From assembly GCA_032622095.1 (NCBI GenBank), contig CP136061.1, positions 216,348,373 through 216,412,372 of the forward strand: a stretch of DNA of 64,000 nucleotides. The letters run 5' to 3'. Within the stretch, counting starts at the first letter, position 1; every line of letters begins with the position of its first letter. Made by a program: the position numbers and the translations under genes. Source of the DNA: Siphonodentalium dalli (Eukaryota; Mollusca; Scaphopoda; Gadilida; Siphonodentaliidae). This document shows, piece by piece, positions 12,652 to 55,818 of the stretch. The notes beneath the pieces were generated by a model. That model worked only from the letters and a program-made list of their open reading frames with translations, did no database searches and was not told the origin of the DNA.

Positions 12652-12972
12652 AAAGTAATTGACCACCAATAACGTGGTGTCACCCCGTTAATATGGCGGT
12701 ACTATACCGCGGTATCCTCCAATACGTGGTACTGATACCGCTTGTTAACGCGAACAAGTATGTGTGAGTAAATACCTCCCCTCAAAGAGTTCCATGAAAA
12801 TCACTGCGGTATTCAACAAATTTAATGCGGTGCCCGCTAAAAGACCGCGGTATCATTATCGCCCAATACCGTAACTCCACCGCCATGACCGTCTTGATAC
12901 CGCTACCGTTTATTACCGGTATCACCGCGGTCATGACCGGGGTATCACCCTGTTTTTCTGGTCAATTACTTT
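12652..12972. mobile_element. Palindromic-word element 1 (ACCGCGGT words)
   Basis: Termini AAAGTAATTGACCA and TGGTCAATTACTTT are exact inverse matches (321 bp between outer ends). The interior is built from variants of the self-complementary word GATACCGCGGTATC (for example around 12699, 12842 and 12920). It is GC-richer than its flanks and has no open frame. No clear target duplication. Compare the elements at 20.7, 28.8 and 55.1 kb. Confidence 0.7.
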
Positions 12973-13079
12973 GAGAATAGCCGTAGCTACACTAATGCTT
13001 ACTAATCAAGTAATTTCTTATAACGAGAGGCCGATCGTGAGATGTTTAACCCATACTTGGCGATAGTGATCAGCTAGTT

Positions 13080-13200
13080 TCAGTTCAGACACGAAAATCC
13101 ATAAGCCATAACTCTGTTTAAAATATAAAAAAATGGATCAAACCCAAATTCGAAATCTATCTGTATTTTGGGCTGAGAAACTCACATACAAAATTTACAT
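13080..13200. repeat. Family A repeat fragment
   Basis: 'tccataagccataactctg', 'cccaaattcgaaatctatctg' and 'gggctgagaaactcacatac' match the family A unit. Confidence 0.55.
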
Positions 13201-13629
13201 ACATCTCAATAAAATGAGATATATCAGATGAAAGGTATTTCTGCTAAGTATAAAGAATGTTGTGAATTAAGGGTTCATTTAACCACAAAAATCCATACAA
13301 GTGAAAGGGATATAATAGGAGAATGATTACATGAAAAATATACAAAAGCATAAATTGATGACAAGGGTTAACAATTTTAACTCAATAAAATTAGGTACAG
13401 GTATGTCACTGGAACATTGCATTGATAAACCAGAGAGCTGTATGGAAATACAATAAACAACAGATGGTTCTCTGTCCAATTACACCTTCCACTGTGCCCT
13501 GACAATATGATGGCTAAAAATAACTGTAGTTTCCAATAATACAAGTTAATCTACAGTATTCTCTCTCAGTGCTAACTGATATCACCAGTGTTAGCTGCTA
13601 TGGTTCTACATGATAAGCATAAAAATATC

Positions 13630-14192
13630 GAATCTGTTCAATCCTTAGTTAAAAAGGCCATAACTCTGGTATAAAAAACAGGATCTAACCCATATTCAAA
13701 CTTGATCTGTATTTTGAGTTGAGAAACTCACATACCAAAGTTGGTTCCGATCAGACGATAACTGGTTGATCTATCGAAGCATGGATGAATTCTATATCAA
13801 AGGGCCATAACTCCATTAAAAATAATCTGATCAAACCCATATTCGAACTCGAACTGTATTTTAGATAGAGAAACTCACATACCAAATTTGGTTCTCATCA
13901 GATAATTTTTGTTTTTAGTTATCGTAGCAACCATGAATTCTAAGTCGAAAAAGGGCCATGACTCCGTAAAAAAAACTCGGATTAAACCCATATTCGAACT
14001 CGATCTGTATTTTGGTCTGAGAAACTCATATACAAAATTTGGTTCCGATCAGATAGAAACTATTTGAGTTATCGCACCATGCGTAAAGTGTCTACGGACA
14101 GACAGAGGGTCGGACGGACAGACGGACGAATGACGAGTGGTCATTCCGGACGTCAACATTATGTTTACCATACTATGGTATGGGTAAACATA
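13630..14192. repeat. Family A repeat, best-preserved copy
   Basis: Three to four units of about 150 bp ('gggccataactcc..catattcgaactcgatctgtattttg..gagaaactcacataccaaatttggttc'). The tail is 'cgtaaagtgtctacggacag' and GGACGGACAGACGGACG, followed by an imperfect hairpin at about 14,164-14,190 (TGTTTACCATAC / GGTATGGGTAAACA). Non-coding. Confidence 0.7.
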
Positions 14193-15640
14193 AAAACACA
14201 ACAGTGTGATGCAGGTGAACTTACATCCTCCTCTGCATTATCAAAGGATACTACAAAAACACCAAGTCATTGCTCCACATCCCATTGGATTTACTCTGAT
14301 AGAGGTGTGAACAATAAGTGGCACATCCTTTGATTTTATTGATATAGTACCTCTTTGACAGACCCAACAACTAAGAATAGAATAAGATATGTATAATTCA
14401 CAACGATATTAACACAAGTGTATACTATTATACATCTTTATTATTTAAGAAAAACTGGAACAAATAATAGTATCTTCTCCTATTCTACAGGATAGATACA
14501 TGATTGTATTCACCTTCCAAATGCTAAAAAATGGGGGTGGGCTTATCTACGAGAACCACCCCATGTTTTGTTTAGGGGAAAAACCCAGACTGGGCTTATC
14601 TTTGAGGATGGGCTTACTGACGGGTGTATACATTATTCTGCTTTAATTTTGATGAGCTCAGGTCATTTGGCATGTGTTATTTAGATGCAAAAAATGAAAC
14701 TACACCGAAGTATAACACCGATTCAAAAATATCTGAATCAGCGGATCTCGAATCGGGTGCCTGATATCAACATTGAATCGAATCTCGATTATTCGCAGGT
14801 CCCTAATTCGTATATCCCAACCAATTCACAATTATACATTCTAATTTGAATCAATTAAATATCCCCTACATGTAACTTGGCAGTGCCCTATATAAAATGA
14901 ATTCTCAAATATGCTCTTGTATCTACACAGGCAGTAAATGTGAAGGATGGTTACATGTAAGCAAGAACAATGCTTCATTAACTTTTTCTATCCAAACATT
15001 ATGTTAAGATTTTCTATATACCTAATTTGTTTTCAGCTCTGTCTGGAAAAATATCTTGATCAAATTCTGGTCTGTGTCTTTATTATCCATTGCCATCTAC
15101 ATGTATGTGTATGATATGTATGAACCCTGATGAGAATGAAAAAAAAACAAATTATTCATTTACTTATCATCTAAGGTTCGAACCCTGACATGGGTAAACA
15201 AATATTGGGATAAATTTTCAAGTGTGATCTGAGTTGAGGGACATTTCAATGTGCCATTCCGATCGATAAGAAATGAGAATTTGTTCATGCTCACTGAAGC
15301 AAGCACACTCATACTGTGTCTGTGATTATAAATACCCTAGTACCAGTAATTGTATGGTCAGATACAATTGCAGAGCTAGTGCATTGTGTTGTTCCAATAT
15401 AATGGTAGATGTGTTCTGTGTCAATATTCAAACCCATGTTCAGACTAATATGGTTCCCAACTCTGGGCGAAAGGTATGGACATCATGATTATTCCTATGA
15501 ACGATGAACTGTTGATAAAGCCGATAACTGATTACCATTTCCGTTGTTGATTATTTCGGATGTCAGACAATGCCGGGTATAATTGCATACCGTGTTTGAA
15601 CCTACAACATTTTAATCAACGATGTTCCCCGAACTGCGTC
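14193..15640. other. Gene-free stretch
   Basis: No recognisable gene. A perfect B-box-like word GGTTCGAACCC lies at about 15,175 but has no A-box or cloverleaf partner. Confidence 0.35.
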
Positions 15641-16500
15641 AAATTGAGCCAAAAATGGTAAGGCCTGTAGTCTGTGTTAACGGATTGATTTTTGGCCACT
15701 GACCGCCATGTTTTTTTGCCGAAAGGCTGCTAAAATGACCCGTTCCCAGCTACATGTTATGACAAATTTCAAACTGATCTGACCAAAGGACTTGTAGCAC
15801 ATGCTAGTGGGAATTGTCGGATGTACACATGCACACACAGCATATCATGGTCAGAAAACAGGGTTCCCCAAAAAATCTCTGTATTCATCCCTATCCCTTT
15901 TATTGGTTACCCCCGAAGCGACATATGAAGTTTGGTGATGACCTGATGAGGGATGTGGTCTGTAGGGTGTGTCAAAGGATTTATTCATCTAAAGAGTAAA
16001 ATCCAAGATGGCTGCTGACGGCCATGTTTTTCTTAACAGATTTCAGATAAAATTGATGGCTCTCATCTATAGGTCACCCTGATGATCCATGTGAAATTTG
16101 GTGACGATCAGATTCTATAGGGTGTGCCAAAGGATTTGGTCAAGCAAAGAGTAAAATTAAAGATGGCGGCCATGTTTTTCATAAAAAATCCTTCAAATTT
16201 TATAGCTCCAAGCTAGAGGCAATCCTAAACATGCCTGTACATTATCAAAACATTTCTTCAATAAATGTGGAATGCAAAGTGTGCTGATGGATTTAAATTT
16301 GAAATCAAAGTTACTGCTGGCGGCCAATTTTTTAATGAAATTCGGAAAAAATTGATGGTTCCCATCTACATGTAGAGGTCTCACTGTTGGGTGTGCCAAA
16401 GGAAATTGTTGATGGATGGATGGACGGACTGACAGACAACGGATACCAACTCATGGCAATAGCTTAAACCTCTGAAACCTGACTTTGTCAAGTTGAGCTA
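15640..16500. repeat. Family C repeat copies
   Basis: Diverged units with 'aagatggc..ggccatgtttttc', 'gtgtgccaaaggattt' and 'aagtttggtgacgat', ending 'ggatggacggactgacagac' and 'catggcaatagcttaaac' plus 'agttgagctaaaaa'. The segment near 16,159 has AAGATGGCGGCCATG. Confidence 0.7.
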
Positions 16501-16729
16501 AAAATTATTTATTTATATTACTGTATCCACATATCATGATAGACATTATATATACCTTATCAGTTTTCAGCTATCTCTGGGATAATATCTTGATCAAATT
16601 CTGGTCCCTCACATTATTATCCATATATATATATATAAGTAGCTCTTTGAGTTCCAGGATCCTTAATGATAATGAAAACAAAATTATGAATAATCCTTCA
16701 CTGATCATACAATAATAATCCTTGTACAC

Positions 16730-19262
16730 AATAATCCAGAGTAAATTCCAAGACGGTGGCCATTTTTAAAACAAATTTGAATTTTTTTTATGGCTCTGAT
16801 CTGGTTGTCATACTGAAGATCTATATTAAGTTTGGTGACAATCGGATAAGGGCTTGCAGGATGTGCCAAAGGATTCACCATGGAAAGCGTAAAATTCATG
16901 ATGGTCACCCCAAAGAACCATATGAAGTTTGAATGAAAGTGTCAATGACACTGTAGCTCAACTTAGAAAGGGAATAATTTCATGTGTTAAAGTCAATGGA
17001 GTGATTAGGAATGTGGAAAGTTGAAAGGTCTAGTTATGCAAAGAGTAAAATCTAAGATGGCCACTGGCAGCCATGTTTTTTTTTGCCAAATGATCCCAAA
17101 AAGACTCGTTCCCATTAACATGTCATTATTAACATCCAGTACAAATTTCATGATGATCTGACAAATGATACGACCTGTAGGTCGCGCCAAAGGATTTAGT
17201 CATGCAAAGAGTTAAATCCAAGATGGCTTCTGGTGGCCATTTTTTTTGCCAAATGACTCGTTCCGATCTACATGTCAATATTAACATCCTTGACAAATTT
17301 CATGATGATCAGACAAGCAGTATGACCTGTAGCCCGCGCCAATGGATTGAATTTTGAAATCCAAAATGGTGGCTGATGGCCATGTTTTTTGCCGAATGAC
17401 CCCAAAATAACTCGTTCCCATCTACATGACAATGTCAACATTCATGACAAATTTCATAAAGATCGGACCAAAGGTACAACCTGTAGCCCGTCCTAATGGA
17501 TTGAATTTTGAAATGCAAGATGGCCGCTGGCGGCCATGTTTTTTGTTGAATGACCCCAAAATGACTCCCATCTACATTCCAATTTCAACAGCCATGACAA
17601 ATTTCATCATGATCAGACTAAAGGTACGACCTGTAGCCCATGCTAAAGGATTTATTTTAGTCATACAAAGAGTAAAATCCAAAATGGCTGCTGGCGGCCA
17701 TGTTTTTTTGACCCCATCATAACTCAATACCAACTACATGTCAATATTAACATCCATTTCAAATTTCATAATGATCCGAAAAAAGATACGACCTGTAGAC
17801 TGTGGTAATGGATTGAATTCTGAAATCCAAGATGGCTGCTGGCTGCCATGTTTTTTTGGCCGAACAAACCCAAAATCACTCATTCCCATCTACATGGCAT
17901 TGTTAACATCCATGAGAAATTTCATGAAGATCCGACAAAAGCTACGACCTGTAGCCCGCGCCAAAGGATTTAGTCATGTAAAGAGCAAAATCCAAGATGG
18001 CTGCTGGTGGCCATGTTTTCTGGCCGAATGACCCCAAAACGAATCGTTCCCATCTACATGTAATTTTTAACATCCATGACAAATTTCATGAAGATCCGAC
18101 AAAAGCTATGACCGGTAGCCCGCGCCAAAGGATTTAGTCATATAAAGAGCAAAATCCAAGATGGCTGCTGGCAGCCATGTTTTTTGGCCAAACGACTCCA
18201 AAATCACTTGTCAATATTAACATATATGACAAATTTCATGATGATCAGAGGAACAGTACGACCTGTAGCCCGCGCCAATGGATTTAATTTTGAAATCCAA
18301 GATGGCCGCCAGCAGCCATGTTTTTTGGCCGAATGACCCCAAAATGACACATTCCCATCTACATGTCAACATTCATGACAAATTTCATAAAGATCAGACC
18401 AAAGGTACGACCTGTAGCCCGCGCAAAAGGAAATTGTTGACAGACACACACACGACAACCCATGGCAATAGCTCAAACTTACAAAGTAAGTTGAGCTAAA
18501 AATAACGGCTCCTATCTGAGGTCTCCCTGAAGATCCCTGTGAAGTTTGGTGACGATCCGATGAGGCAGAAGGCATGTAGGGTGTGCCAAAGGATTTAGTC
18601 ATACAAAGAGTAAAATCCACGATGGCTGCTGGTGGCCATGTTTTTCAATAAAATATCGAAAAAAATTGATGGCTCCAATATAAAGGTCAGTCAAAAGTAC
18701 CATATGAAGTTTGTTACAAAGAGATGAGGGATGAGGGACCTGTAGACCGTGCCAAAGAATTTAGTCATGCAAAGAGTAAAATTCAAGATGGCTGCTGGCG
18801 GCCATGTTTTTTTGCCGAATGAACCCAAAATGACTCTTTCCCATCTACATGTTATTGTTAATCTCCATGACAATTTTCATGATGATAAGATAAACAGTAC
18901 GACATGTAGCCCGTGCTAATGGATTGAATTTTGAAATCCAAGATGGCTTCTGGCGGCCATGTTTTTTAGCCGATTAACCCCAAAATGACTTGTTCCCATT
19001 TACATGTCATTGTTAATATCCATGACAAATTTCAAGAAGATCTGACCAAAGGTACAACCTGTAGCCCGCGCTAAAGGATTTAGTCATGCAAAGAGTAAAA
19101 TCCAAGATGGCTGCTGACAGCCATCTTTTTTGGCCGAATGACCCCAAAATGACTCGTTCCCATCTACATCTCATTGTTAGCATACATGACAAATTTCATG
19201 AAGATCTGACCAAAGCTACGACCTGTAGCCCATGCCAAAGGATTTAGTCATGCAAAGAGTCG
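16730..19262. repeat. Family C tandem array, unit about 145-165 bp
   Basis: At least a dozen degenerate head-to-tail units. Each unit reads, in order: 'catccatgacaaatttcatg', 'gatc.gacaaa.gtacgacc', 'tgtagcccgcgcc', 'aaaggatttagtcatgcaaagag', 'aaatccaagatggctgctgg', 'cggccatgtttttt', 'gccgaatgaccccaaaatga', 'ctcgttcccatctacatgtc'. An internal tail ('catggcaatagctcaaact', 'agttgagctaaaaata') at about 18,460-18,503 marks the end of one element inside the block. The open frames across it (for example 17,426-18,031) are read-throughs of repeat units and not genes. Confidence 0.85.
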
Positions 19263-19857
19263 ATTGATCAGAATTCTTTATTTATTTTCGAATAGCGGTT
19301 GCTGCTAACTATTCTGACATTTTGAATGAGGTTTTGGCCACGTGACGGTCATGCGACAAGCAAAACATGCGTGTTGCCATCGTCACGAGCCGGATTTTCC
19401 AGGTGAAATAAAACTCAGTTTGATCGGTCAGATTAAATCGAATCCGACAAAAACCGGCCCAAAGTGTTGGCGCACACGATCCCGGTTGTCCCCGATTTAT
19501 CCGGCAGCCGAGATCGTGTGTGCCGACACTAAGTTGTATTGATTTTTCGCCACTTCACAATCACGGGCATTCACGATTGCCAGACCTGCTAGGCCTATTG
19601 AGTTCCACCGAAGTTCTGTATCTGTAGATACCGGTACATGTATTACAGTGCAGGAACCAATTCTGGTTGTAGACGACACACTGGTCCAGGTGCTACCACG
19701 GCCGAGTAACTTTATAACCCTGTGGTGACTCCAGTAGCGTTCTTTAACGTGCACACACCGAGGCGTGTACACGGGTCATGCAGCCATTAAATTAATGTCC
19801 GCACCCGATCGGACAGTGCGTGGCTGCACCACCTATTACCTGGACAAGTGTTGTAAT
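19263..19857. other. Unique, GC-richer stretch
   Basis: Contains GGCGCACACGATC at about 19,469, inverted with one mismatch at about 19,512 (GATCGTGTGTGCC). A 91-codon minus-strand frame (19,497-19,772) has no recognisable motif. It could be part of an exon or promoter, but I cannot support a gene. Confidence 0.3.

Positions 19858-19889
<32 letters not shown>
19858..19889. repeat. 32-nt poly(G) run
   Basis: An uninterrupted run of 32 G on the plus strand. It is the longest of twelve G or C homopolymers of 11 nt or more in the window. Confidence 0.9.
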
Positions 19890-19890
<1 letters not shown>

Positions 19891-20004
19891 GTGGGAGTCA
19901 GCATTTTGCAATTTGCAATCAGATCTTTATTCAGTGATCTCAAATGAGACTTTTCAGCCTGACAAACTTGATATCTGACCGAGTTCTGATTTTTGTCAGA
20001 ATAC

Positions 20005-20088
20005 CCTGCCCAGGTTCAAGTTGCGATCCCCGGTCCGCTAGCACGAGAGACCAATAGGCAATACGCTACCTCTCGGCTACCGACTTCC
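20005..20088 (-). repeat. tRNA-like (SINE-type) fragment
   Basis: Read on the minus strand, the segment has an A-box-like TAGCCGAGAGG and, about 45 nt on, GATCGCAAC, a damaged B box, followed by 'ttgaacctggg'. The order and spacing resemble a tRNA-derived SINE head more than a functional tRNA; no convincing acceptor stem is visible. A 182-bp MITE is inserted at its edge. Confidence 0.3.
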
Positions 20089-20270
20089 TAGTCCAACAAA
20101 TTAGACTATTCGGGTTAAGATATATTTTCATATTTGGACATTTACGATTATCTTAACCCTTCTAAGGGATTAACTTCATTAACTTGATTAAGGCCACATA
20201 AATGTCCAAATATTAAAAAAAAATAGGTCTTAAAATTGACTTAATTCGAATCGTCTAATTTGTTGGACTA
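20089..20270. mobile_element. 182-bp MITE with 9-bp target duplication
   Basis: The ends are inverted repeats (TAGTCCAACAAATTAGAC and its mirror ending TTGTTGGACTA). Inner arms also mirror each other ('atatttggacattta' and 'taaatgtccaaatatt'). CCGACTTCC occurs directly before (20,080-20,088) and directly after (20,271-20,279), a clean 9-bp target duplication that can be extended to 11 by the flanking TA. This length fits Mutator- or Merlin-type elements. No coding capacity. Confidence 0.8.
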
Positions 20271-20619
20271 CCGACTTCCAAGTTATTGAGTTATTGACTA
20301 CAGCAAATACTTACACTCCGATTTCTTGATCCTGAAACATCGACTGGTTCTTCAAGTACGTTGGTTTGCGTCCGATGTGAAGTGAAATACAAGAATTTAA
20401 TTTGTGAAGCGTGGTAAACGTATAAAACGCCATTTTGTACGATGAGAAATCACGTGACTACCCATGTCAAGTATCCATATCACGTGAGCAGGCAAATCGC
20501 TGATTCTAATCTGGACAAGCTCACCCAGCGTCCATGACGTCTCAAATAAATATTATGGCAAGCCGATAACTGATTCTGGTAGACTTTCTTCACTCGTTAG
20601 ATTCCGGCTTACGGTAGTC

Positions 20620-22535
20620 TATGGGTGCCCATTTGAACCCCTGGATGGCGGCAATTTTTGGATTGGGATAGGGTTATGGGGTGTGAAAACAGTTCCTTGT
20701 GGGAGGCGGAAGGGGGCACAATGTAACTATGGGAGGTCAAATTCACTTCGTTTCAGCGCAATTCAATTGCGCTTCAGTGCAATTGATGAAGCGCAATTGA
20801 ATTGGACTGAAGCGCAATCAATTGCGCTTCAGCACAATTCATTTGCGCAATTATTTTCCCATATATGGGAACGCCCACTTGCATTTGGGTCTACAAGTGG
20901 ATCATCATACAGCACACTTTGTTTGACATAAATCGGTCAAGGGGCCGAGAAATGGCATGGGCACGTGCACCCTATTCAAACCCCTCTGGACGGCGGACAT
21001 TTTGGATCGGGATGGGGTGTGTGGGATGTACGACGAGTTCATTGAGGGGAACTCATAACAATGCCCTTTATTTGACCTAAACCGGTCAAGGGCCGATAAA
21101 CGGCATATATGCCCCATTTGAAACCCTCTGGGTGGCGGCCATTTTGGATCGTGTTGTGGTGAATATTTAGATCGGCTTAGGGCCACCCTACAATTACACC
21201 CTTTGTTTAACCTAAATCGGCCAATAAATTGCGCGAGTGGCCTATTTGAACCCCACTGGACGGCGGCCATTTTTGGATCAGGATGCATGGGTGAATATTT
21301 AGATCGGATAGGGGTCACCCTAAAACACCATTTGTTTGACATTAAACGAAAAAAATGGCACGAGTGCCCTATCTGATCACCATTGGATGGCGGCCATTTT
21401 GGATGGAAGTGGGTCACACAAAACCTATTATTGGATATAGGTTTATGAAACCTAAATCGATTAAGGGTCTAGGGTTAACATGGTGCCCAATTTGAACCCA
21501 TCTGGACAGCGGCCATTTTAGACTGGGGTCGGGTGAACGAGGTGAATATTTAGATTGGCTTGGGGCCACACGTAACATCCTTTTTTGAACTAAATCGGGT
21601 AAATGGCCATGGGAGCCCTATTTGAACTCCTCTTGATTCTTTGAATCTGGAAGGGGTGAATGGGGTGAATATTTAAATTGGCCGGGGCCATCATACAACG
21701 CCATTTGTTTGACCTAAATCGACCAAGAGGACGAGAAATTGCATATATATGTACCCTATTTGAACCCCTCTGTGTGGCGGCCATTTTGGACCAGGTTGTG
21801 GTGTGTGCAAAGATTTGATTGTAGGACACCCTAGAACGCTAATTATTTGACATAAATCTGCCAAGGGACCTATGCCATATTTGAACCCATCCGGGTGGCG
21901 TCCATTTTGGATCGGTGTGGTGTGAATATTTAGATCGGTTAGGCGGCCACTCTACAACACCCTTTGTTTGACATATACCGGTCAAAGGACCGATGCATGA
22001 GTAGGCCTACCTATTTGAACCCCTCTGGAGGGCGTCCATTTTAGATCAGATAGGTGCATATTTAGATAGGCTTGTGAGTCATCCTACAACACCGCTATGG
22101 GGTCACCATACAATACACTTTGTTTGACCTAGATTGGTCAAGGGGCCGAGAAATGGCATGGGTGCCATATTTGAACTCTTCTGGACAGCGGCCATTTTGA
22201 ATCGGGGGTTGAATGGGGTAAATATTTAGATTGGCTTGGGAGCCAATATACAACGCCCTTTGTTTGACCTAAATCGGTCGAGGCCGAGAAATGACAGGGG
22301 TACCCTATATGAACTCATCTGGACGGCGGCCATTTTTTGGATCAGGGTGGGGTGTTTGGAAAGAGTTATTTGGTGCAATCTATAGCATCCTTTATTTGAC
22401 CTAAATCGGTTAAGGGGCCGAGAAATTACATTGGTGCCCTATTTGAATCCCTCTGGGTGACGGTATTTTTGGATCGGGGTGGGTGCGTGGGGGATACATT
22501 GTGGGCACCATATAATACACTTTGTTTTACCTTGT
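20620..22535. repeat. Family D tandem array, unit about 115-140 bp
   Basis: More than ten degenerate units. Each reads 'ccctatttgaacccctctgg', 'cggcggccattttggatcgg', 'gtgaatatttagatcggctt', 'ggccaccctacaacaccctt', 'tgtttgacctaaatcggtca', 'aggggccgagaaatggcatg'. Cores GGCGGCCATTTTGGAT fall at about 20,993, 21,130, 21,262, 21,391, 21,776, 22,190 and 22,327. The minus-strand 170-codon frame at 20,905-21,417 is only the repeat read through (its product repeats P-K-W-P-P blocks). Confidence 0.85.
20727..20864. mobile_element. Palindromic-word element 2 (GCGCAATTG words)
   Basis: Left end CTATGGGAGGTCAAATTCAC; right end TTTTCCCATA, which mirrors TATGGGA. The interior consists of variants of a self-complementary word, CAATTGCGCTTCAGCGCAATTG-like (written here without its middle: CAATTGCGC..GCGCAATTG). 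It interrupts the family D array. The left terminus is nearly identical to that of the element at 28,789. Confidence 0.65.
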
Positions 22536-22611
22536 ACAACTTTTGAATAAGGAATAAGGAATGGAACTAATCTTTGTTGTCCGTGTTCCTTAATCTCATA
22601 TTGTATATCGT

Positions 22612-28788: not shown

Positions 28789-29228
28789 CTATGGGAGGCC
28801 AAATTCACATTTAATAGCCAATTACACTTAAGCATAACGCATTATGCTTAAGAGTAATGCATTTATGCATATGCGTAAGCGTAATTCGTTACGCTTAATC
28901 ATAATTTAATTATGCTTAATCATATAATTTCATTTTGCTTATGCATAATGGCATTACGATTAAGCATATAATGCCATTACGCTTAAGCGTAATTAAGATT
29001 TCCATTACACTTAAGCATAAAAACTCCCCTGGAGCTGAAATGGATGCAACCAATTACTGATGCTAGTAACCTTTGATATATATTTACCTTAGATGTTACA
29101 ATTATATGTAAGATAGTAAGGCTGTGGAAACCTATGAATTTAGTTGTGAGTAAGGCAATTAGGCTTAAGTGTATTACATTTTGGCTTAAGCGTAATTAGC
29201 TATTAAATGTGAATATGTCCTCACATAG
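28789..29228. mobile_element. Palindromic-word element 3 (CGCTTAAGCG words)
   Basis: Left end CTATGGGAGGCCAAATTCAC continuing 'atttaatag'; right end 'ctattaaatgtgaatatgtc' plus 'ctcacatag' is its inverse with three mismatches over 29 bp. The interior (28,818-29,012 and again 29,160-29,195) is variants of AATTACGCTTAAGCGTAATT joined at random phase, with a non-palindromic segment at about 29,030-29,150. Possible AAAA duplication at the borders. Confidence 0.75.
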
Positions 29229-44353: not shown

Positions 44354-44507
44354 TATAGCAGCTTTAAAATTAAATAACTATATATTAACGTTTGAATTCT
44401 GCATGACAATTGAAAAATTTAGCCTTTTAATGCTGATTATAATGTATATACACATCTCTCAGTGATAAACAATATATATATATCTGACTGATGTAGATAC
44501 ATAGAGG

Positions 44508-44628
44508 ATATCCACACTTTTTCAGTGGATATAGGTTATATCCCATGAGTGATGACAAAACGTTGAATTTCCACGAGTGGCTTTAGCTTTGAGATTTAAA
44601 CCCATATCCACTGAAAAAGTGTGGATAT
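44508..44628. mobile_element. 121-bp foldback with about 21-bp perfect arms
   Basis: ATATCCACACTTTTTCAGTG continuing 'gatat' at the left is exactly inverted at 44,604-44,628. Short non-coding centre. Family unknown. Confidence 0.65.
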
Positions 44629-44639
44629 TCTGTTTATTA

Positions 44640-46380
44640 TATAGGCCTAGCCTACTTTAGTTACTTGCCTATGGCCCCCAATGAATGTCAATACATCAGA
44701 AATTTCAAGCTGAATATATCACTCACTAGTGGGATATATCACTTATATCTCACTGCTAAAACCTTATAGCAAGTACCGGTACCGGTATATACGTAATCAA
44801 TTTATTTCTCTGCATATGCAGCTAACCATGTAGCCGATATATCATATTTGTTATCGTCATTCATAGAGTAGGCTACATGAAAAATTTGACTGCTAATTTG
44901 CAACTAAAATTTAGGTAATTTCTAGATATAGTAACAATTATTTGCGTAAAACCCATGGTGCATGCGAATGTGGTTGTTCTATTATATAGTACCGGTGCCG
45001 GGTACCGGTACCTTGTATTTTTTATAATTTGTACAACCGCATGTAGGCCTATGTGACCACCGTCCCCTATATTGATAGCCAATGGATGCATATCTATATC
45101 TATTTTAGGCAAATTAAAGCACTTCAGTATTGCAAAAACACATTTATCACCCTCCTACCAAAAGGGTGTTGGTATATAGGCTAACTATATATACGGTACT
45201 GAACAATAGAAAATTATCATTGTTTATAAATATAATTTGGCATTTGAGCCATCAGGAAAAACCACCGGAAAAATGGGTTTCTCCACATGGGCTCCTGACC
45301 ACCCACTCACGTCGGCCCTGTGTACTGGGGATATATAACTATAATAGACATATGCAATGCAATGTCCACCAACACAACCAAGCTTGAAAATCGGTCCATA
45401 TTTTCGCCTATATCGGGATTAGAACCCACGAGCGCCTGTCTAGCCATTAATTGTGCACAGTCTTGACTTGATGGCATCCATGCACGACATCTTCACGTCG
45501 CCAATTTTCGGGGGACACCATAAAAAGGAGAACTTTCAAATATAGAGTTGCGCTGAATTCTTTTGCACTTGTATAACATTTTTCATCTATTTGTCGTCTG
45601 CTTAAATTTATTACCTGAACATCCCTCCAAATGTATAATAGACCTTTCCAATAGGCCTATATATTTGTATAACTGGGGGGGGGGGGGGGCGGGGTCCATT
45701 TAGTAGGCCTAAGAAAGGATTAAATTGTATTATAATATATTATAATAATTACATATATTATTACCAAAAATACAAGAGAAACAGCCGATGTATAGTCCAC
45801 TCAGTGTTCAATTTAAAAGACTGCCTATATATATAGGCCTATATAATTATGTGTTTCTTGAAAAAACTGGTACAACGTACCGGTACGGTACAGGCAATGT
45901 TCTCATCCGTGAAACGAGAGAAATGGGGCATATATAGGCCTGATAAATGTGGGACATACATACTTGACAAATTTAGCAAAAGGTATTAGGTATGACATAA
46001 ATAATTATATCCGTAGGCGTCAATAATGGCTCCCTATATGTATTTTAGTATTTTCAGCGGCATTCTAAGAGTTAAACGTACAATACAGTGCCGTGGTATA
46101 TTCCGTTCTAGATAACCCACATCAATATTATCCAAGGTTGCAATGTTAAAATCAGGTTCGACAGAGTTCTAAATTATTATGCTAACTCCAGATATATTTC
46201 ACAACCAAGGGTAATGAAACTCGTTCCAGAACATACTATGCTGCATAATGTGCAATACCCTTGCCAATTGACAGCAAACACCAAGTGGATTGAGGTCACG
46301 TCAAACTAGTTTTCACAGGCCTTTCAACTCTGTTGTTGTTTTGCATGACAGATGCAGTTACTCAAGCACATTTATTTATA
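44640..46380. other. Gene-free stretch upstream of the BTG gene
   Basis: Rich in TAGGCCTA and ACCGGTACC palindromic words, with poly(G)15 at 45,675-45,689. No gene recognised. Confidence 0.4.
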
Positions 46381-46386
46381 GTAACC

Positions 46387-46490
46387 CCATATTTGGAAAA
46401 TAATTAGTATTCCAAGGATTGTGATTGGCTAGCACTGGAGCTGACGGCAGGTGGAGTGACGTCAGCTGTTAATTTGTCTATTTACTCAGT
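46387..46490 (+). promoter_or_regulatory. Putative immediate-early promoter of the BTG gene
   Basis: CCATATTTGG at 46,387-46,396 is a perfect CArG box (SRF site, CC(A/T)6GG). An inverted CCAAT box, GATTGGC, lies at 46,423-46,429. The consensus CRE TGACGTCA is at 46,457-46,464 and is followed by the E-box CAGCTG. An initiator-like TCAGT at 46,486-46,490 would put transcription start about 25 bp below the CRE and give a ~350-nt 5' UTR. There is no good TATA box. CArG plus CRE is the classic arrangement of growth-factor-inducible genes, which suits a BTG2/TIS21-type gene. Motifs are seen; function is inferred. Confidence 0.6.
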
Positions 46491-46837
46491 GGAGGAGAGA
46501 AGGACGCCATTGTGATATTTGTTGGGAACAAAGAGCGGTTTGCAATATTTTTGAGCTAGAAAGTGCGGAGAGACGAGTAGAAACGCCAGTTTCACGCAGA
46601 ATGTCAAGTTGAAGCAGTATAGAACTAATATATGTGTTTACCGCAGAGAAAAAAACAACATATTGTGATATATTTTGGAGCGAAAACAAAATCCTGTTGA
46701 ATCTTCGTTGTGGATTCGGTTTGTTGACAACCTATTCGAGAATACGACATAACCAGAAGGCGTAACGCAGTCAAAGGGAATATAAAATTCACGGCTTTTT
46801 CACGCCATATTGGCTTTATTGCTTTAAATTGTTTGTC

Positions 46838-47191
46838 ATGAAGGACGAAATAAGAAGTGCTGTTGACTTTCTTAGTAACATTCTAAGATCGGGAGATGTT
46901 GATGCAGAACACATTTTTAACTTCAACGCCACACTTCAGAATTTGTTGAAACAGCGATATGAAAACCACTGGTTCCCAGAGAAGCCTTTCAAAGGAAGCG
47001 GATTCAGATGTCTAAGGATTAACCACAAAATTGACCCAATTTTGTTACAAGCTGCTGACGCAGCTGGATTGCCTCATACCTCAGTCCGCACGCTATTGCC
47101 AAAGGAATTGACAATGTGGGTTGATCCACAAGAAGTTTCTTACAGATTTGGTGAGAATGGAAGTATTGGGGTGCTCTTCGATGCTGTGAAA
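46838..47191 (+). other. BTG domain region (boxes A and B)
   Basis: Sub-feature marking the conserved domain (residues 1-118). Box A is encoded at about 46,958-47,023 and box B at about 47,096-47,179. There is no intron between the boxes. Confidence 0.85.
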
Positions 47192-47380
47192 CCCCAGTCC
47201 TCATCTCCGGATAGTACTAGTAGTAGTTCCAGTTGTGACTCGGAATCGGACAGTGATATGTGCAGTACCAGTCCACCAAGTGATATCGATATGTATTCCT
47301 CATGTAAGAATCAAATGTTTCATGTCTCGGGAGTCGCATCTGAAAATATTCAGCAGCTAGCTGCTTTTGTCTACAGTTAA
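46838..47380 (+). CDS. BTG1/BTG2-type anti-proliferative protein (180 aa)
   Basis: Intact single-exon frame from ATG 46,838 to TAA 47,378-47,380. An in-frame TTG three codons upstream gives a slightly longer frame, but ATG AAG GAC is the natural start. The BTG/Tob domain fills residues 1-118. Box A is Y41 to N62 (core HWFPEKPFKGSGFRC) and box B is L87 to F114 (LPKELTMWVDPQEVSYRFG, then ENGSI). Y41/W45 and W94 lie where vertebrate relatives contact the CAF1 (CNOT7/8) deadenylase, so a role in recruiting CCR4-NOT to mRNA and slowing the cell cycle is expected. Residues 121-155 are Ser/Asp/Pro-rich and probably disordered. The end, KNQMFHVSG (157-165), resembles the conserved C-terminus of vertebrate BTG1/2, which argues for BTG1/2 over the longer Tob type; it is followed by 15 extra residues. 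Vertebrate BTG1/2 genes have a coding intron; none is present here. No in-frame stops or frameshifts are seen. Confidence 0.95.
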   Translation: MKDEIRSAVDFLSNILRSGDVDAEHIFNFNATLQNLLKQRYENHWFPEKPFKGSGFRCLRINHKIDPILLQAADAAGLPHTSVRTLLPKELTMWVDPQEVSYRFGENGSIGVLFDAVKPQSSSPDSTSSSSSCDSESDSDMCSTSPPSDIDMYSSCKNQMFHVSGVASENIQQLAAFVYS

Positions 47381-50300
47381 GTTACTTCCAAAAAAGTAAC
47401 TGGATCTTCATTCATCAACAATCAGTACCACATTGTTACAATTTGTTGTGAGAACTGCAAAGCAGGCAGTAGTGTGAGCTAAATCTGTAGGACAAGGCAC
47501 GTCGTTTTCTCCATTTATCTTTAATATTTATCTCACGACTTAAGATAATTGTTGGAAATAATGTTCCCTGTCAGACTTCAATTTTAACATTTTATGGGTC
47601 AATTCCTTCTACCAGTACCAGTGTGTTTCTATCTGGTATTTTTACGATTTTGTATTTGGTTCTTTTGTGAATATATGGTATTCTACACACAAAAAATTTG
47701 AATGAGAATTTTAAATTTCATCGCTATTCTCAGTCTAGGATATATTTGCATTGTTTAGAGTTAATTGAGACGCTTGGGCAACATCTATTTTAAAGCCTGG
47801 TTTACAAATTCATCCTGTAACATCCCCCCCCCCCCCCCCCACATGCTATGGTTTAAAAAAAGATTAAACTTATTATTGATTGGTTTTTGTTAAAGTTCAC
47901 TAATTCATGAAGCATGTTGTGAAGAAAATAGTAGATGGCAAGGTCTTTCCTTTTGTGTTCTCCTTCCCCCTTATTTTGACATTTTTATGTGAAGAAATAC
48001 CTCAGTTTATCTGTATCAAACAATCTTGTGGAAGTCTATACATTTGCTATATTCATCATTGAATTTTTGAAAATAATTTTTCCCCCTTCTGCATTAATTT
48101 TTGTCCAGCCAAATGTTTTTAAACCAGGCTATATTTAAATATTGTTGTGGCTTTAAGGCTGTTGTTGAATTGTGGTTAAAATGTCATATAAAGTAAAAAT
48201 TTGCCTGCTTTGCAGTTCCCGTGGGTTGCACATTTCTCATGTGTAGTTGATTCCCATCTATTTCCGGACCAGGAACATTTTTCATTTGAAACTTTTGTTT
48301 CACATGTATCCATATATTTGTTACTTTTTGTGACATGTTGATCACAGCATTCATCATTGTCAAGTTGTCCGTTGGAGTTTTTTTTGTATTGTTCTGATCA
48401 AAATGTCTCAAAATGTTTGTGCCATTTGTTGATTATTTCATACCTACTGATACTGCCTTAAACATTGCGCTCAGCCTCATACAAGTTCATCCTGACATAT
48501 TTAGAAAAAATTCCGCAGCTGAGATTTTTATGCTAATATTATTTTCCATTTATATCTGTTTTCATTCTTTTTGCTGGTTCAGTTTTCTTATTAATGACAA
48601 TATTTTAAGTTTTCCAGGAATCTCTTACAAATATGCATACTGAATTTAACTTGCTAAAGTTCTACTGTACATCTACCTGTACAGGTATAATACATGAGGA
48701 TTCAAAAATCTGTTGTTTTTTTTTTAAATTTGTTTTCAAAGACGAATTTCATGATCTCAATGATATTTTTTTTAGTCCTTTCTGTGGTCTGTAAACCATA
48801 CTGAAAATATGTGTACATATACAGTACTATTATGTGTGGGTTTAGGTAAAATTTGTGAAAGTTCTCAATTATTTTGTTTAAAAATTCCTTTCTTTTCTTC
48901 CAAATATGAATTTTGAAATTTCAGCTGATTCGTGACAAGGTTCCTCCCATACTGTTGTCATATTATCATATACAGTATTTTGTGCACCGGTCACAAATTT
49001 CAATCATACTATTAATAGGAAAAATCATATTTTGGATGTTGTTCGCCATGAACCAGTAACTTTTAATTATCATACCGGTATAAACACCATACTTAGCCAA
49101 TCTCTGTAAATGGTTTATCCAAAGGTTTGCCCAGTTCTGATTAAAATCAGACTCTCAAACATCTCTGCCTTCCTGAGTCTGAAGAAATTAGTTAATACTT
49201 TTTCCATTAATACCATCAGCAAGCATTATGCCAGTGTCAGCCAATCACAACATCTATTGATAAAGTGTCCAGAATTTACGATTAATGCACAGGAAGGAGA
49301 ATAAAAGTGCGTATTCCAAGAATTTCTACAGTTAACCCCAGTTTCAAGCGGCAAATAACAATGAAGCTGAACGAGATCGTAGAACTATTTGTGCCCTGTG
49401 TCAGTGGTCATACTGCATGAATTGAATGCAGAATTTAGTTAACTTAGTTATAGCTACAGTAATGGAAAACCCGCCTATTACTTCAGACTCAGTAACACAG
49501 CTGTTTGAACTTGATTTTAATCTGAACTGAGGTTTGCCCAGTTAAAAATCTGTGAATTTACTTTTTGAATATATCGGTACTAGTAGGCATCAATTCTTTT
49601 AGGAATTTTTTGGATTCCCTGCTAGCAAGTAATAAAATTACCCATTATTTTGAGTAAGATAATATTCCTCTCAGAAAGTCATTTGGGTTACTTTATTATT
49701 AAAATGGCAGGTAAAATATGACACCAGTACTTGTACGATACACAACAACATGTACACTGGACTGATATGGTTATTACATGTACATGTACTTCCTCAGGTT
49801 GACATGAATATTTTGCAGACATCCACTTTTCTGACAGGTTCTAATCATACCGGTAGAAATTTTCTTTGTGATACATGTGGTATTTTTTCTTCTCAGTTCT
49901 TTTCCTTGTGATTTAATTTCATAAATTTACTCTATTTATTAATATATTTATGAAAGGGACTATTTAATTTCTTACTGCAGTAGACCACTCAGTGCTAATT
50001 GTAAATTTCTTAATTGTTTATTTCTTTTTGGGATTTTAATACCTGGAGAGTGGAACCCAAAGTACGGTACTATTCTCTAGATCCAAATAATATTACAAGA
50101 CCCAAATAGTGCACACTGTACTAGTAATCAGGTATATTATCAAATGTGTTTATCAAAATTAGAATATATAGATGATGAACTTCAAAAAAAAATTCTTTGA
50201 ATTGTCAGAGGACCGGCGAAAAAGAAAGTTTTCTACTCCTACAGTAACAAACTGTAATTAATCAGGGGGTTGTTTGGAACTTTGGATGGATTTACATTGT

Positions 50301-50500
50301 ACAGGTATTTGCTGAGATTGGTTTTTCTACCATTGAAAGAACAACATACTCCTGTATGTTTAATGTTTCACATAGAAAAAAAAACTTTGGAAGAGGTTGA
50401 CATGCAGTGTATTCAAGTTGCATTTTCAAGTTAAATTTATAATGTGCATACCGGTACATGTTTATTTGGATCCTGAGAGTAGAACAACACTTGTGTTTTT
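47381..50500 (+). other. Likely BTG 3' UTR and downstream unique sequence
   Basis: U-rich sequence with none of the window's repeat families, several ATTTA words and a Pumilio-type TGTACATA at 48,812. Candidate poly(A) signals AATAAA lie at 49,300 and 50,856. A C17 run sits at 47,824-47,840. Long, AU-rich 3' UTRs are usual for short-lived BTG mRNAs. The actual cleavage site cannot be fixed from sequence alone. Confidence 0.4.
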
Positions 50501-50538
50501 TGATAACTCCTACTTTTAAAATGAGAAGAACAGAATAT

Positions 50539-50745
50539 ATGCAACAAATGAATGAATTTGAGCCATGGATTGTGGTGCAAAATACACTCACTTTCCCTAT
50601 AAACAATAGAAATAACATAGTAATTATAATGAAAATGAGTAAACTCTTTTTCATTACACATGTAATTACCATGTTTGCATTGTTCGTAGAGCATATGAGT
50701 GTATTTAGCACTAATCCATGGCTCAAATTCATTAATTTGTTGCAT
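50539..50745. repeat. Long hairpin, arms about 95-100 bp
   Basis: Left arm 'gcaacaaatgaatgaatttg' / 'agccatggatt' / 'aatacactca' mirrors right arm 'tgagtgtattt' / 'aatccatggctcaaattcat' / 'taatttgttgc'. The centre is at about 50,640. A one-arm relative is at 10,296-10,420, so this is a dispersed foldback element and not a miRNA gene. The minus-strand 146-codon frame here is a shadow of the hairpin. Confidence 0.7.
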
Positions 50746-50759
50746 TTCGGTCTCCGGTT

Positions 50760-53630
50760 ATTAAATTCTTATGTCCACTATAGATGTAAGTGGGACACAC
50801 ATTAATTTTTAGGCTTAAATCAATTGGTGCATGCATTCCACAGCTGTTTTGTTATAATAAAGTATCAGGTATTATTGGGTTGAACATAACATTTGGTATC
50901 AGATCATATGGACATGCTAGAGACAAAAATCATTGTGAGTTTGTGTAGTGCTAGGTGGTGAGTGTAGTTTTGTGTGTTGCATATTGTAAATCATGTTTCA
51001 ATTCCATGTGATGACGGATGGCCAACATTCCTCCTGAAGCATTGTAATTTTGATCTTATTGGCATGGAAATTGACAATTAATATCTACAACTTCAGCAAG
51101 ACGTTTTCTATAGAAAAAAAAAAAATTATTAAAGAATTTCTAAATTTAATTAGTGTTTGGTACATGGTTTCAGTCTCTCAAATAAACTTACACTACCCAT
51201 TTTGATACAGTGTGACAATTCTGTGTAGTAGCCAAGCTGCCAAGGATAATAATAACAATATTACCTTTCTCAAAATTCTCTTACATGCAGAATGTCAACC
51301 CACGATGTTCTGAACTTCTCATTATATATAAACAAAACTACTACTAGTACATTCGCTGGTACTAACGCTATTGCTGTTTACTGTTATTGTTTTTGTAACA
51401 ATGCTTCATGCTGTTTGGTTGGTCAGGAATCGGGTGTGTTGAAAACATTCATAGTCACATTTTGCTCCAAATGAATATTTGTATTGAAATGTGATTCGCC
51501 CCTTGTGGGTAACACAGGGCATTGTTGTCTTTCAATTTGTTTCTGAGTCCATCCTGAGTTCCAGATCTCCAGCAATCTATGTATATTTTATGGAATATGT
51601 GTATAGACAAAATGTACAGTTGATGATGAATGAACGTATTATTTGCAGATGCAATATTTTTAAAAGAAAAGGTTTTAAAGATGAAATAAAAGTAATTGCA
51701 TTTTACATGTGTCTTCTATTGTGAATTAATTTCTGTTCCATATTAGAGAGGTGAATTCAGCCATGGAAGTTTGTATCAATGACTGGGATGAAAGAGATAA
51801 ACCTTTTGAGACTTGTTTACTTTTAACATGATCACAGCTGTTGTAGCGATCTTTTAATATCCCGTTGATCCAGTAACGTCCCCTCAAGTAAACAAATCTC
51901 AAAAGGTATACAAAAATGTATCTTCTTCATCCCTATCATTCAATTAATTTCTGAGAAAGCTACATGTACCATTCAATGTGATTTGTCCCACAATGGTCCC
52001 TCAATTTGATGTGCCATATGAGCCTGAAATTAGTGGTACATGTACAATGTACATGTACATCCATGGTGCGACTTGTTTCTCTGCGATTTCAATGCAGTCA
52101 AATTACCAATCCAAAACAAATTAACCGTTTTAGTTACAAAATAGACAATACTGCCAGTTGTAATACTAAGTCTAAAAACAAACTGAATTTGATTGTGATT
52201 GCATCATTGCTTTTTTTAGACTTATTTAATACCGGGTACAACAGCCAGTATTGTCTGACCTGTCACTGAAACATTTAATACTACTGGTAGTTTTATCCTT
52301 GCCAATAATTCATATTTCTCCACCTTCTCCCAACAGACTTAACCATCACAAACTAATCATTCCTTGTGACATGGAGATACATTATTGCTCCCTTCTGGAG
52401 AGTACTTTATTCCCATTAACTCATCAGTTGGGATGTCGAGCTACATGTAATAGGTTAAAAAATAATTGCAGTCTGTCAAGGTCATGAGCTACACATGTAC
52501 ATGTAAACATCACATCGCTTTTGAAGTACGGTAACTTTGAATGGTAATTTCAGTGGTACATGTAGCTAATATCAGTATCCAATCTGGTGAATCTCATCAG
52601 TAAAAACAGTAATCGACTGCCTTGTAATTTACAACTGTTCGGGCAATAGGATTAAGTTCTCACTGAATATTAAGTGTTATTAACAATGACACCCCCCCCC
52701 CCCCCCCCACTAATACATGTAGTTGTCAGTTATGTACATGTATGTAGTAGGATGGGAAACAAGGATTCCCAAGTTTATCCAGACAAATACATGTAGGCCA
52801 GTACAGTATGATTGTATCATGTGCATTGGATACTAGATTTGTGGGCTCTTGAGTCTTTTCCCTGAAGAAAATACTGTTTCTTGTTTCTCTTCTCCACGTT
52901 TACAAGTTTGACCTTTGAGCTAAATGTGGCTTGTATGAAAAATATATTGTAAAATGATTTCATTATTTCAAATTATCTGGAATCTCTTGGCGGGCCCCTT
53001 GGACAAGGTTACAGTAAAGCTCTAAATAATGGACTCCTTACTGAGAGCTTTCCGATGAATGGCAACAAGCCATATTTCCGACTAAATCCTGAAAAATTAC
53101 CCATAATTCTGCTGTGGTTAAGGAGTCGATTATTTAGAGTATCACTGGTACATCTGTTAATTTTCTTCCAACAGAAAGATTAGAGTGGGCTCATATTTAG
53201 TGTGGAATTCACTGTTGGTGGTGGTCCATCCGTGACTATCGGTAGTTCCATATGTGTAGAGCCAAGTAACTACCATAAGTCATTGGTGACTGGGATCTAT
53301 CGTAGATTTGATGAATGGGTTAGTTTAGAACTGAATGTACCGTATGTTTGAACATCTCAAGATCATCCAATGAAGTCACTGAATCACATATGACATATCA
53401 GACAGTTTGATTGTGATCATATTTGATGCAGAGGGTCATTTTTCGATTTGGCTTCATTTTTGATGGCTGACAAACAGCCCTTTAAAGATTTTACATTATA
53501 CTTCTCAGACGGGTTCGGATTTGGTCAATTTAATTTTGGTCAGTTTTGCACTGAAAATCTTAACTGGTTATATTTACTGTTGTCATTGTACATTTCAGTT
53601 AGATCCTGCAATGAATCTCTACTCGGGCTA
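50760..53630. other. Gene-free, mostly repeat-poor stretch
   Basis: No recognised gene. It has poly(C)17 at 52,692-52,708 and frequent TGTACATG words at about 52,040-52,800. Confidence 0.4.
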
Positions 53631-54100
53631 CTATATTCCACCAGTTAAAAACCTGGGAACTTTTTGAAGTTCTGATGGGGGAACTTTATAACATTAAACA
53701 AAATAAAGCAAGTAATACATTTCTTATTTAATACAATCATGTTCCTAAAAAATGTACAATGTACCGTAATGCACTGTAGGTGAAGGTCCCAACTCGATAT
53801 TCTTCTGAACCAATTTTGCAATAAACTTGAATTATTTACCCCGGGGATTTTTAGCGATGCAAAGCAAAATCGGCTCCCAAAAGTGCCTAAATCATACAAT
53901 CTCGAGCTGGGGCCTTCACTCACTGTCAAATACATTAGATAGAAACAGGTATTAACTAAGAAATATCTTACACGGGGTAGGAACTGCTCCGCGTGGCGGA
54001 TACATCTTCCGAATTTCCGATCTTCGGTCCAGTTCTTATCCGATCTTGTCAAGGTCACTGGGGATTTTCCCATGGTAGATAACACAAGTTTTACGCAACA
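53630..54100. repeat. Module F copies in opposite orientation
   Basis: 'ccaccagttaaaaacctggg' plus 'aactttttgaagttctga' (53,638-53,676) and, inverted, 'ggggccttcactcactgtca' / 'aacaggtattaactaagaaa' / 'cggggtaggaactgctcc' (53,910-53,990) are parts of the module repeated at 54.5-57.2 kb. The 146-codon minus-strand frame (53,645-54,085) is an accident of this repeat. Confidence 0.55.
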
Positions 54101-54519
54101 GTGATTATGATATGTACATGTATGCAGTTCATTTGTTTTATATAAATTGCCAGCTACCTATTAAGCTATCAAGGTACACCAGTTGGAAATTGTTAAGTGT
54201 GGAATAGTAGAATTTATCCATTTTAAGAAATGTTCCAGTTCACTAGTGATGGGTCCCAGTTCACCATTGATAAGATCCGTTCACTACCCGAACATCTACG
54301 CAACAGATTTGTGCTAAAATAAGTGTGCACATATGTTTGAACTAAAACTTTCGCACTAGACTCACTTTTGATTGAATTTAATCGCTAATGGTTATTGCGA
54401 TACTGTAGTTTGGTACCTTGTACATGGTGTAAAGCACGTCTGTTTTGGACCAAGTACAAAAAAACTAGCAAGTGAACTGGACACGCATCGATAGTGAACT
54501 GGACCGAAAATCAGAAGAG

Positions 54520-54920
54520 GATCTTTTCTCATGGAGCAGTTCCTACCCCGTGTCTTACCTGCGTTATGTTTTCGAGGTTATAAAGTCCCCCCCCCCCCCC
54601 TCTGAACATAAAACAGTTCCCCTGGTTTTGAGCTGCATGGTGGAATATAATTATATGATCTCTACTGGTGTAGCCATGCAGAGTAAAGATTCATGACATG
54701 ATCTAGTACTAGTATCATGTCATGAATGATGAATCTCTACTCCAGCTAATGCCTGTAGAGTTCAATCAGTACAAAACCTGGAAACTTTGTAATGTTCTGA
54801 AGGGGAACGTTTATAACAAACAAGGCATGGAATATTTCTTTGTTAATACTAGTACTTCCTCAATAATCTACTTCACATTAGGGAGTGGTCCCAGCTCGAG
54901 ATTGCATGCTTTTCTGTGAA
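54520..54920. repeat. Module F inverted pair with central palindrome
   Basis: 'agttcctaccccgtgtctta', C14 (54,587-54,600), 'acagttcccctggttttgag' and 'tggtggaatataat' face 'gtacaaaacctggaaacttt' and 'gttctgaaggggaac'. The two sides meet at a palindrome near 54,692-54,727 (CATGACATGATCTAGTACTA and its mirror). Confidence 0.6.
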
Positions 54921-55066
54921 TTTTGTGAGCAAATATCGTAAAAAAGATTTAATTACCAACGATTAATATTCCTTAATTGTATGCGATGCAAAGCAAATTC
55001 GCTCAGTCACTTAAAGGGGTCCTTTAGACTAAATCATTTTATTTTTTGGGGAAGAACAAAAATTGA

Positions 55067-55818
55067 TGGGGAATGAAATGTACATTTTTTAGCTTAAGCA
55101 CAGATATTTGCACTTAGGCACAGGTATTTGCACTTGCACAAATATCTGCACTTACATGTAGGCTCAAATAATTGCACTTGATCTCATATATTTGTGCTTA
55201 AGCAGAAATGTTCATGCTTGTGCAAATAATTGTGCTTAAAGGTACTCAACCCGTAAAGAGGGTCCCCATCTCAACAGATTCCAACAACAACAATCCGATC
55301 AGAGGGTCCTATATTACTATTTCTTTGGCTTTGGGGGTAAAAAATATTTGATTCGAGTCGAGGAACCCATCAAACAAAGCTCAGAGTTATTAGATATTGA
55401 TTTTTGAAAATTCTTATGTTCTCGAGATGAGTACTTATAACTGCCGTCAATTTGGTACATGCTCGAGATTTTACGCCAAAATTCTATTCAAACAGACAAG
55501 GATGGATAACTCTATAATCAAGTGGTAATAATTGACTACGTACTGGGCCAGAAAGAATTCCCGATAATGAAAAATAATAGATTTCTAAAATCGATATCTA
55601 ACAAATCTGAGCTTTGATGGGTGACTTCCTCGACTCGAATCAAATATTTTTGACCCCCGAAGCCATTGAAATAGTAATTGAGAGGAGTTTTATCGGGTTG
55701 AGTACCTTTAAACACAAAAAGAGCAATGCTTTTACGCTTAAGCCTAAATAATTGTGCTTGAGCACAAATAATTGCGATTAAGCACAAATAATTATTAAAA
55801 GTGAACTTTGCCTCCCTC
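55067..55818. mobile_element. Palindromic-word element 4 (TTGTGCTTAAGCACAA words), split by a MITE
   Basis: Variants of AATTATTTGTGCTTAAGCAC and its mirror fill 55,091-55,239 and 55,708-55,797. The right end 'aaaagtgaactttgcctccc' read inversely is GGGAGGCAAAGTTCACTTTT, close to the termini of elements 2 and 3. The left end (about 55,067, 'gatggggaatgaaatgtaca') is more diverged. The element is interrupted at TTAA by a 468-bp MITE. Confidence 0.65.
55240..55707. mobile_element. TTAA-flanked foldback MITE, copy 4 (468 bp), nested
   Basis: Ends AGGTACTCAACCC / GGGTTGAGTACCT; TTAA at 55,236-55,239 and 55,708-55,711. Removing the MITE and one TTAA rejoins 'attgtgcTTAA' to 'acacaaa' and restores the host element's repeat word, which proves the insertion order and the TTAA duplication. 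Confidence 0.9.

Follow-up and report, generated by a model that had tools for sequence, protein, structure and literature searches.

IS3EU (GingerRoot-type) transposons are the described elements closest to those treated here. In the parts of PMC10045372 available to us they are said always to have TA..TA ends and usually a 6-bp target-site duplication (TSD), and in those of PMC12730594 fungal IS3EU elements have TAYGG..CCRTA ends, with a terminal inverted repeat (TIR) of >30 bp stated for the fungal members; in the same parts of both papers 'subterminal' and 'tandem repeat' are absent and 'palindrom' occurs 0 and 1 times respectively, the single occurrence being in another context. In Galileo, a P-superfamily element, the THAP domain binds repeats inside the long TIRs, and 'palindrom' is absent from the sections of PMC3688188 at hand. 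For oyster, the available portion of PMC8268682 discusses mobile elements that carry tandem repeats, and its reference list includes a paper on a miniature inverted-repeat transposable element (MITE) of Donax. Dada elements, as covered by the accessible text of PMC3706591, have a 6–7-bp TSD, insert into small RNA genes and have no TIR in the described families. Here we analyse a 64,000-bp stretch of the Siphonodentalium dalli genome (G000:C1:216348373-216412372, hereafter the window) holding four elements built around short palindromic words, numbered 1 to 4 along the window. Elements 2, 3 and 4 belong to one terminus family in which arrays of such words lie just inside the TIRs in a fixed register, and the same register recurs at transposase loci that have another terminus and another word.

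All four places were read, and the palindromic words noted in a preliminary description of the window were found at each. Every place was also used as a query to collect copies, with searches made across the 2.23-Gb genome (9 contigs). The end pattern TATGGGAGGNCAAATTCACNTT identified 4,137 exact TATGGGAGG-NCAAATTCAC ends genome-wide (2,104 + 2,033), and the reversed pattern, used as a control, gave none. Copies of this family came from a list of 100 sites, every one on contig C1, and comprised the 20 plus/minus pairs <2.2 kb apart, one more pair 4.4 kb apart and the first 40 of the single sites; others were added through the element 2 and element 3 queries. Elements with both ends spanned 80 bp to 4.4 kb, and their near-constant TIR of ~29 bp was followed by the first word. 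Over 37 end pairs, partly dependent in that L011 and L020 have the same flanks, L012, L052 and L075 lie in one host repeat and L022 duplicates element 3, and with no family D pair among them, the TSD was exact over 6 bp in 18, matched at 5/6 in seven and at ≤4/6 in 12; a match of at least 5/6 was thus seen in 25 of the 37, compared with 0.7% for shuffled partners. The TSD sequences varied from locus to locus, and this variation together with the presence of TIRs ruled out Dada as far as it is described in the text cited above. Common termini had been claimed for elements 2–4, and these were indeed found together elsewhere. Within the window the shared terminus sits at the left end of element 2 (20728), at both ends of element 3 (28790 and 29227) and at the right end of element 4 (to ~55816); the other ends first given for elements 2 and 4 are internal body.

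The words of elements 2, 3 and 4 had been described as quite different from each other, a claim that did not stand, all of them being variations on a single palindrome centred on GCTT(A/C)AGC. Four word types pair with four bodies (A, B, C and D), and the B, C and D words showed 60–75% identity over the 20-nt consensus, word-to-word identities being those of hand-typed consensus words of A–D and L087–L090 only. The consensus words of A (TTAATTGCGCTTAAGCGCAATTAA), C (GCCATTACGCTTAAGCGTAATGGC) and D (ATATTTGTGCTTAAGCACAAATAT) are each a 24-nt palindrome with weakly conserved outer positions, and the B word has an asymmetric centre (GCGCTTCAGCGC). The expectation of many core types under one terminus type was borne out: the exact terminus plus first word occurred 1,611 times for A, 442 times for B (with a pattern that also lets in a few TTAA-centred words) and 159 times for C, with 0 for the reversed controls, and type D comes in addition. 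Elements with at least three words contained 3 to 21 of them. Among spacings of ≤30 bp, the distance between words was 20 or 21 bp in 88 of 134 cases for A, 78 of 88 for B, 80 of 110 for C and 52 of 55 for D. Of 121 ends, 89 had their first word centred 39–40 bp from the terminus, the chance of a word at any given position being 0.0005; it lay elsewhere in 21, and 11 had none within 110 bp, most of which showed a half-word and then a break. The 80-bp element L016, which has an exact TSD, and the 90-bp element L012 still hold one word. As a separate observation, L012 (also L052 and L075) is a minimal element consisting of TIR, one word and TIR, centred in a larger palindrome; in L012 the 30 bp on either side form a perfect inverted repeat.

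A profile search of the genome with PF24764 gave 126 matches, several per locus, and sequence was taken at 43 loci (6.5 kb at 13 of them, 2.8 kb at 20 and 3 kb at 10). Six lineages among them carry palindromic words spaced ~20 bp apart, each lineage with its own word and one of them odd-centred. A strict automated criterion, requiring a cluster of at least four exact copies of the same 8-bp palindrome, was positive at 15 of the 43 loci (12 of these being one lineage) compared with 0 of 10 Harbinger loci, which were PF13359 loci of 2.8 kb picked among 150 listed; one of the ten had three clustered copies of one palindrome. The words were GGCGTTTAAACGCC in L087 (30 copies), CCTGATATATCAGG in L088 (34 copies) and TCGTGGCCACGA in L089 and L112 (45 and 30 copies), spaced mostly 20–22 bp apart, and reading added TTGCANNTGCAA in L108 and the odd-centred GGGAGATAACTTATCTCCC, spaced ~19–20 bp, in L086. 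The strict filter misses L088 (AT-rich word), L086 (odd centre) and L108 (variable centre), the words of which were found by other reading. L086 has a PF24764 open reading frame (ORF) of 371 amino acids, a TACGG TIR, a 5/6 TSD and arrays on both sides. Nine of the 13 loci for which 6.5 kb was taken had an array, and in all nine it lay 5′ of the gene, with a further array 3′ in L086, L090 and L093; in the loci with short context, the array was 5′ in L112 and 3′ in L108.

Twelve of the loci (L090 and L094–L104), grouped by word, combine a PF24764 match with TTTTGTGATATCACAAAA arrays. Their TIR (TATGGGGCGCC.., beginning TATGGGG) and their word (GTGATATCAC) are both unlike those of the window family, and in 14 of 15 ends the first word is centred at 40 bp. 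The TSD could be read in four of the 12 loci, being exact in L098 and L100, 5/6 in L095 and 4/6 in L090; one end is shifted by 1–2 bases in two loci and was not found in six. This recurrence of the same register with another terminus and another word is the strongest result of the analysis. As an observation on the proteins, the 12 loci match only the C-terminal third of PF24764, and the L090 ORF is a continuous 252 amino acids without the catalytic two thirds; it is conceivable that such a truncated transposase acts as a repressor. The cores of L086, L087, L088, L089, L091 and L108 are 39–65% identical, and the words of L087–L090 agree at only 5–40% of positions; the A and L087 consensus words agree at 60%. 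Weak helix-turn-helix-like matches were obtained in the N-terminal regions.

The window family resembles IS3EU/GingerRoot elements in its TATGG..CCATA ends, which fall within TAYGG..CCRTA, in its 6-bp TSD, and in that coding elements with such ends here carry an integrase-type core (PF24764); it differs in being non-coding. Its near-constant TIR stretch before the first word is ~29 bp, beside the >30 bp stated for fungal members. With ordinary MITEs it shares the lack of coding sequence, TIRs, TSDs and thousands of ends, but short palindromic words in an array make up much of its length, and some copies are 2–4 kb long (to 4.4 kb). Long, internally repetitive ends are also a feature of Galileo/Foldback elements, and in Galileo a transposase domain binds sites inside them according to the sections cited, although that element belongs to another superfamily. 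Tandem repeats inside non-autonomous elements are likewise found in the bivalve MITEs and Helentrons dealt with in the available portion of PMC8268682, whereas here ~20-bp palindromic words adjoin the TIRs in a fixed register. On the basis of ends, TSDs and architecture, we regard elements 2–4 as probably non-autonomous copies of an IS3EU/GingerRoot-type cut-and-paste transposon. Because no coding copy was found among those examined, the claim is kept to 'IS3EU-type, non-autonomous'. Taken with its arrays, the family would probably be an IS3EU-type one with subterminal binding arrays for a dimeric transposase, replaced as the specificity of the transposase changes. A literature search of titles and abstract starts, with few subscription journals, returned no palindromic word arrays in IS3EU among the matches listed, and we tentatively consider the arrays previously undescribed.

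Each word may be a site of two-fold symmetry that the dimeric transposase binds through its N-terminal DNA-binding part. In the resulting architecture, a TIR of ~29 bp would be followed by the word array, first word at 39–40 bp and the others at 20–21-bp intervals, and then by a short body. With about two helical turns between word centres, several dimers could be recruited on one face of the helix, adding specificity, and the fixed distance from word to end would align them with the catalytic complex. The array may also repress the transposase promoter in an autoregulatory manner, since coding elements have their arrays 5′ of the gene. A change in transposase specificity would lead to replacement of the whole word set, so that lineages would have a common architecture and different words. 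The preliminary description offered three origins for the core, namely generation de novo, homogenization and a binding array; judged from sequence, the binding array fits best because of the fixed register, the 20–21-bp spacing and the arrays 5′ of transposase genes. A wider proposal, which we advance tentatively as somewhat less probable than its opposite, is that IS3EU-type lineages each have their own code word in a two-turn register starting at 40 bp, that related enzymes have wholly rewritten the array, that the array is the operator of the transposase, and that non-autonomous families compete by array length.

Several results weigh against the binding-array explanation. Nine PF24764 proteins compared with the family copies by tblastn gave three chance-level matches only (E 0.35–0.85), and no TATGGGAGGCC end (≤4 mismatches) was present in the sequence taken at the 43 PF24764 loci. 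The N-terminal helix-turn-helix matches fall below the Pfam cut-offs. The strict test failed at 28 of the 43 loci, and of these all except L086, L088 and L108 had no palindromic array in the stretch examined, including ten (L134–L143) with no arrays within the 3 kb examined. The arrays of L082/L093, L085 and L091, spaced 20–23 bp, are not palindromic, and that of L086 begins well beyond 40 bp from the end. The register common to families A–D may reflect common descent. The strict filter was also positive in 0 of 22 window slices although elements 2–4 lie in them, showing that it sees only little-diverged arrays and that the window is a weak control. Finally, the link between PF24764 (rva_4) and IS3EU is a presumption, in that this domain may be an IS3EU-type core.

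No transposase ORF was found in L021, the 4.4-kb copy, the longest ORF there being 118 amino acids. PF13683 (rve_3) was set aside as a route to the transposase; its 30 matches, of which several lay in long open frames, were weak. B-type end pairs recur ~2.7–2.8 kb apart, with at least six pairs among 100 places listed (for example G000:C2:37100867/37103567), and these are candidates for a full-length element.

Alternatively, the arrays could be satellite-like by-products of slippage or unequal exchange without a role in transposition, which we consider unlikely. The wide variation in word number, the nearly uniform arrays of L087, L088 and L089, which look like young tandem repeats, the non-palindromic arrays of L082, L085, L091 and L093, and the element-borne tandem repeats discussed for oyster in the part of PMC8268682 cited are all consistent with such an origin. 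However, it does not readily account for a first word at ~40 bp in two lineages differing in both TIR and word, for the word retained in L016 and L012, or for 24-nt palindromes as the consensus words of A, C and D, and all ten Harbinger loci were without such arrays.

The subterminal binding arrays also have to be weighed against hairpin-templated copying, in which the core is generated or homogenized by each half-word being rewritten from the other. In a check proposed in the preliminary description, elements 1, 2 and 3 fold strongly as DNA (z −7.2, −8.2 and −9.3), with 0 of 100, 0 of 200 and 0 of 100 shuffles respectively folding as well as the real sequence. Mirrored half-words were compared with halves shuffled within elements in 590 words of 75 elements, leaving out isolated words and the near-duplicate loci L020, L022, L057, L058 and L133. 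Two of six single mirror positions exceeded expectation, −6 (475 of 590 compared with 451, z 4.6) and −7 (z 2.7), and two fell below it, −5 (z −3.2) and −4 (z −3.4), the last being biased by the word selection (≤1 core mismatch). Whole mirrored half-words (positions −6 and −5) agreed in 279 of the 590 words, with 286 expected, which is the level of chance. Among elements with at least three words, family A words were more alike within elements than between them (0.833 compared with 0.797, z 7.0), whereas the excess was small or absent in C (0.795 compared with 0.782, z 2.4), D (0.791 compared with 0.790, z 0.3) and B (z 1.4). Hairpin-templated copying is therefore very improbable. That all four elements are ordinary, unrelated MITEs whose likeness is coincidental is scarcely credible. 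Element 1 is indeed unrelated and element 2 a passenger in a larger repeat, but the thousands of exact ends against none in the control, the TSDs and the common word register refute it for elements 2–4. Overall, the observation in the preliminary description is partly confirmed and its interpretation partly supported.

Should the words prove to be binding sites, a single genome would contain about six natural pairings of a transposase with a repeated symmetric word, several of the enzymes being 39–65% identical but having wholly different words, and the evolution of protein–DNA specificity in a transposase would become directly testable. The arrays would also hint at how short non-coding copies are recognized, and a register near 40 bp with ~20-bp spacing would be a simple signature for finding such elements.

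Features of the window, with positions counted from its first nucleotide
Feature	Position	Strand	Description
Element 1	12641..12983	+	Homogeneous MITE, TIR CCGCTATACTTAAAGTAATTGACC; TA at 12639-12640 and 12984-12985
Element 2	20728..20848	+	Family B, truncated; left TIR and GCGCTTCAGCGC-type word array; lies within a larger repeat
Element 3	28790..29227	+	Family C, complete, with both TIRs
Element 3, left palindromic array	28813..29023	+	ACGCTTAAGCGT / ATGCTTAAGCAT words; boundaries by eye
Element 3, family C central body	29024..29156	+	Boundaries by eye
Element 3, right palindromic array	29157..29199	+	Boundaries by eye
Element 4	55043..55816	+	Family D, 5′-truncated; body, GTGCTTAAGCAC-type word array and right TIR; left limit set by eye, approximate
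Insert in element 4	55240..55707	+	Separate TIR element AGGTACTCAACCCG..CGGGTTGAGTACCT; TTAA at 55236-55239 and 55708-55711

Element 1 had been counted in one set with elements 2–4 as an element with a swapped core. Its core is fixed, not swapped, because all 40 scored copies (its own included, from 2,013 first-look candidates) were ≥98% identical over the whole 346-bp query; row 41 of the match list shows a TIR aligned to its inverse. The palindromes of element 1, GATACCGCGGTATC among them, belong to this fixed sequence. The TIR starts with CCGCTAT, unlike the terminus of elements 2–4, and had TA on both sides in eight of eight copies with flanks (two of which have common flanks), and no 6-bp duplication was seen outside the TA in the window copy or these eight. 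A TA target duplication is the feature by which element 1 was compared with Tc1/mariner-like elements. Its different TIR, homogeneous copies and TA flanks rule out membership of the set.

Element 2 is a left-end fragment, its right boundary being internal body. The flanks outside it are common to both other copies read, L034 and L035, indicating that it was amplified together with a larger repeat. Element 3 is flanked by AAAAAC and GAAAAC, a 5/6 match that is the same in its duplicate L022. The left 'terminus' first given for element 4 was rejected as internal body, family D left ends lying further upstream in L144, L146 and L147. An allelic empty site had been proposed as a check on the elements: L133, a copy of the element 4 region ~62 kb upstream, is without the TTAA-flanked insert and is an empty site for that insert, not for element 4 itself.

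Among minor observations, positions 28789-29228 and 55067-55248 recur at 98–99% identity on the same contig, ~63.5 and ~62.2 kb upstream respectively (G000:C1:216313653 and 216341229); either a large segment has been tandemly duplicated or the assembly contains a haplotype that was not collapsed. The B-type element L021 contains, at 1687-3108, a nested 1,422-bp TIR element (GGGTCTATTCTCATTGCACACGCGCG..) flanked on each side by TAA. A hairpin-forming repeat (..GGATTTAGTCGGAAATATGGCTTGTTGCC..) is common to family A bodies and other loci (L086 5120-5519, L128, L001 and others), so that a further repeat seems to be nested in family A bodies. The window also has an ORF of 204 amino acids at 46766-47380, which we take to resemble an exon of the BTG/Tob family.

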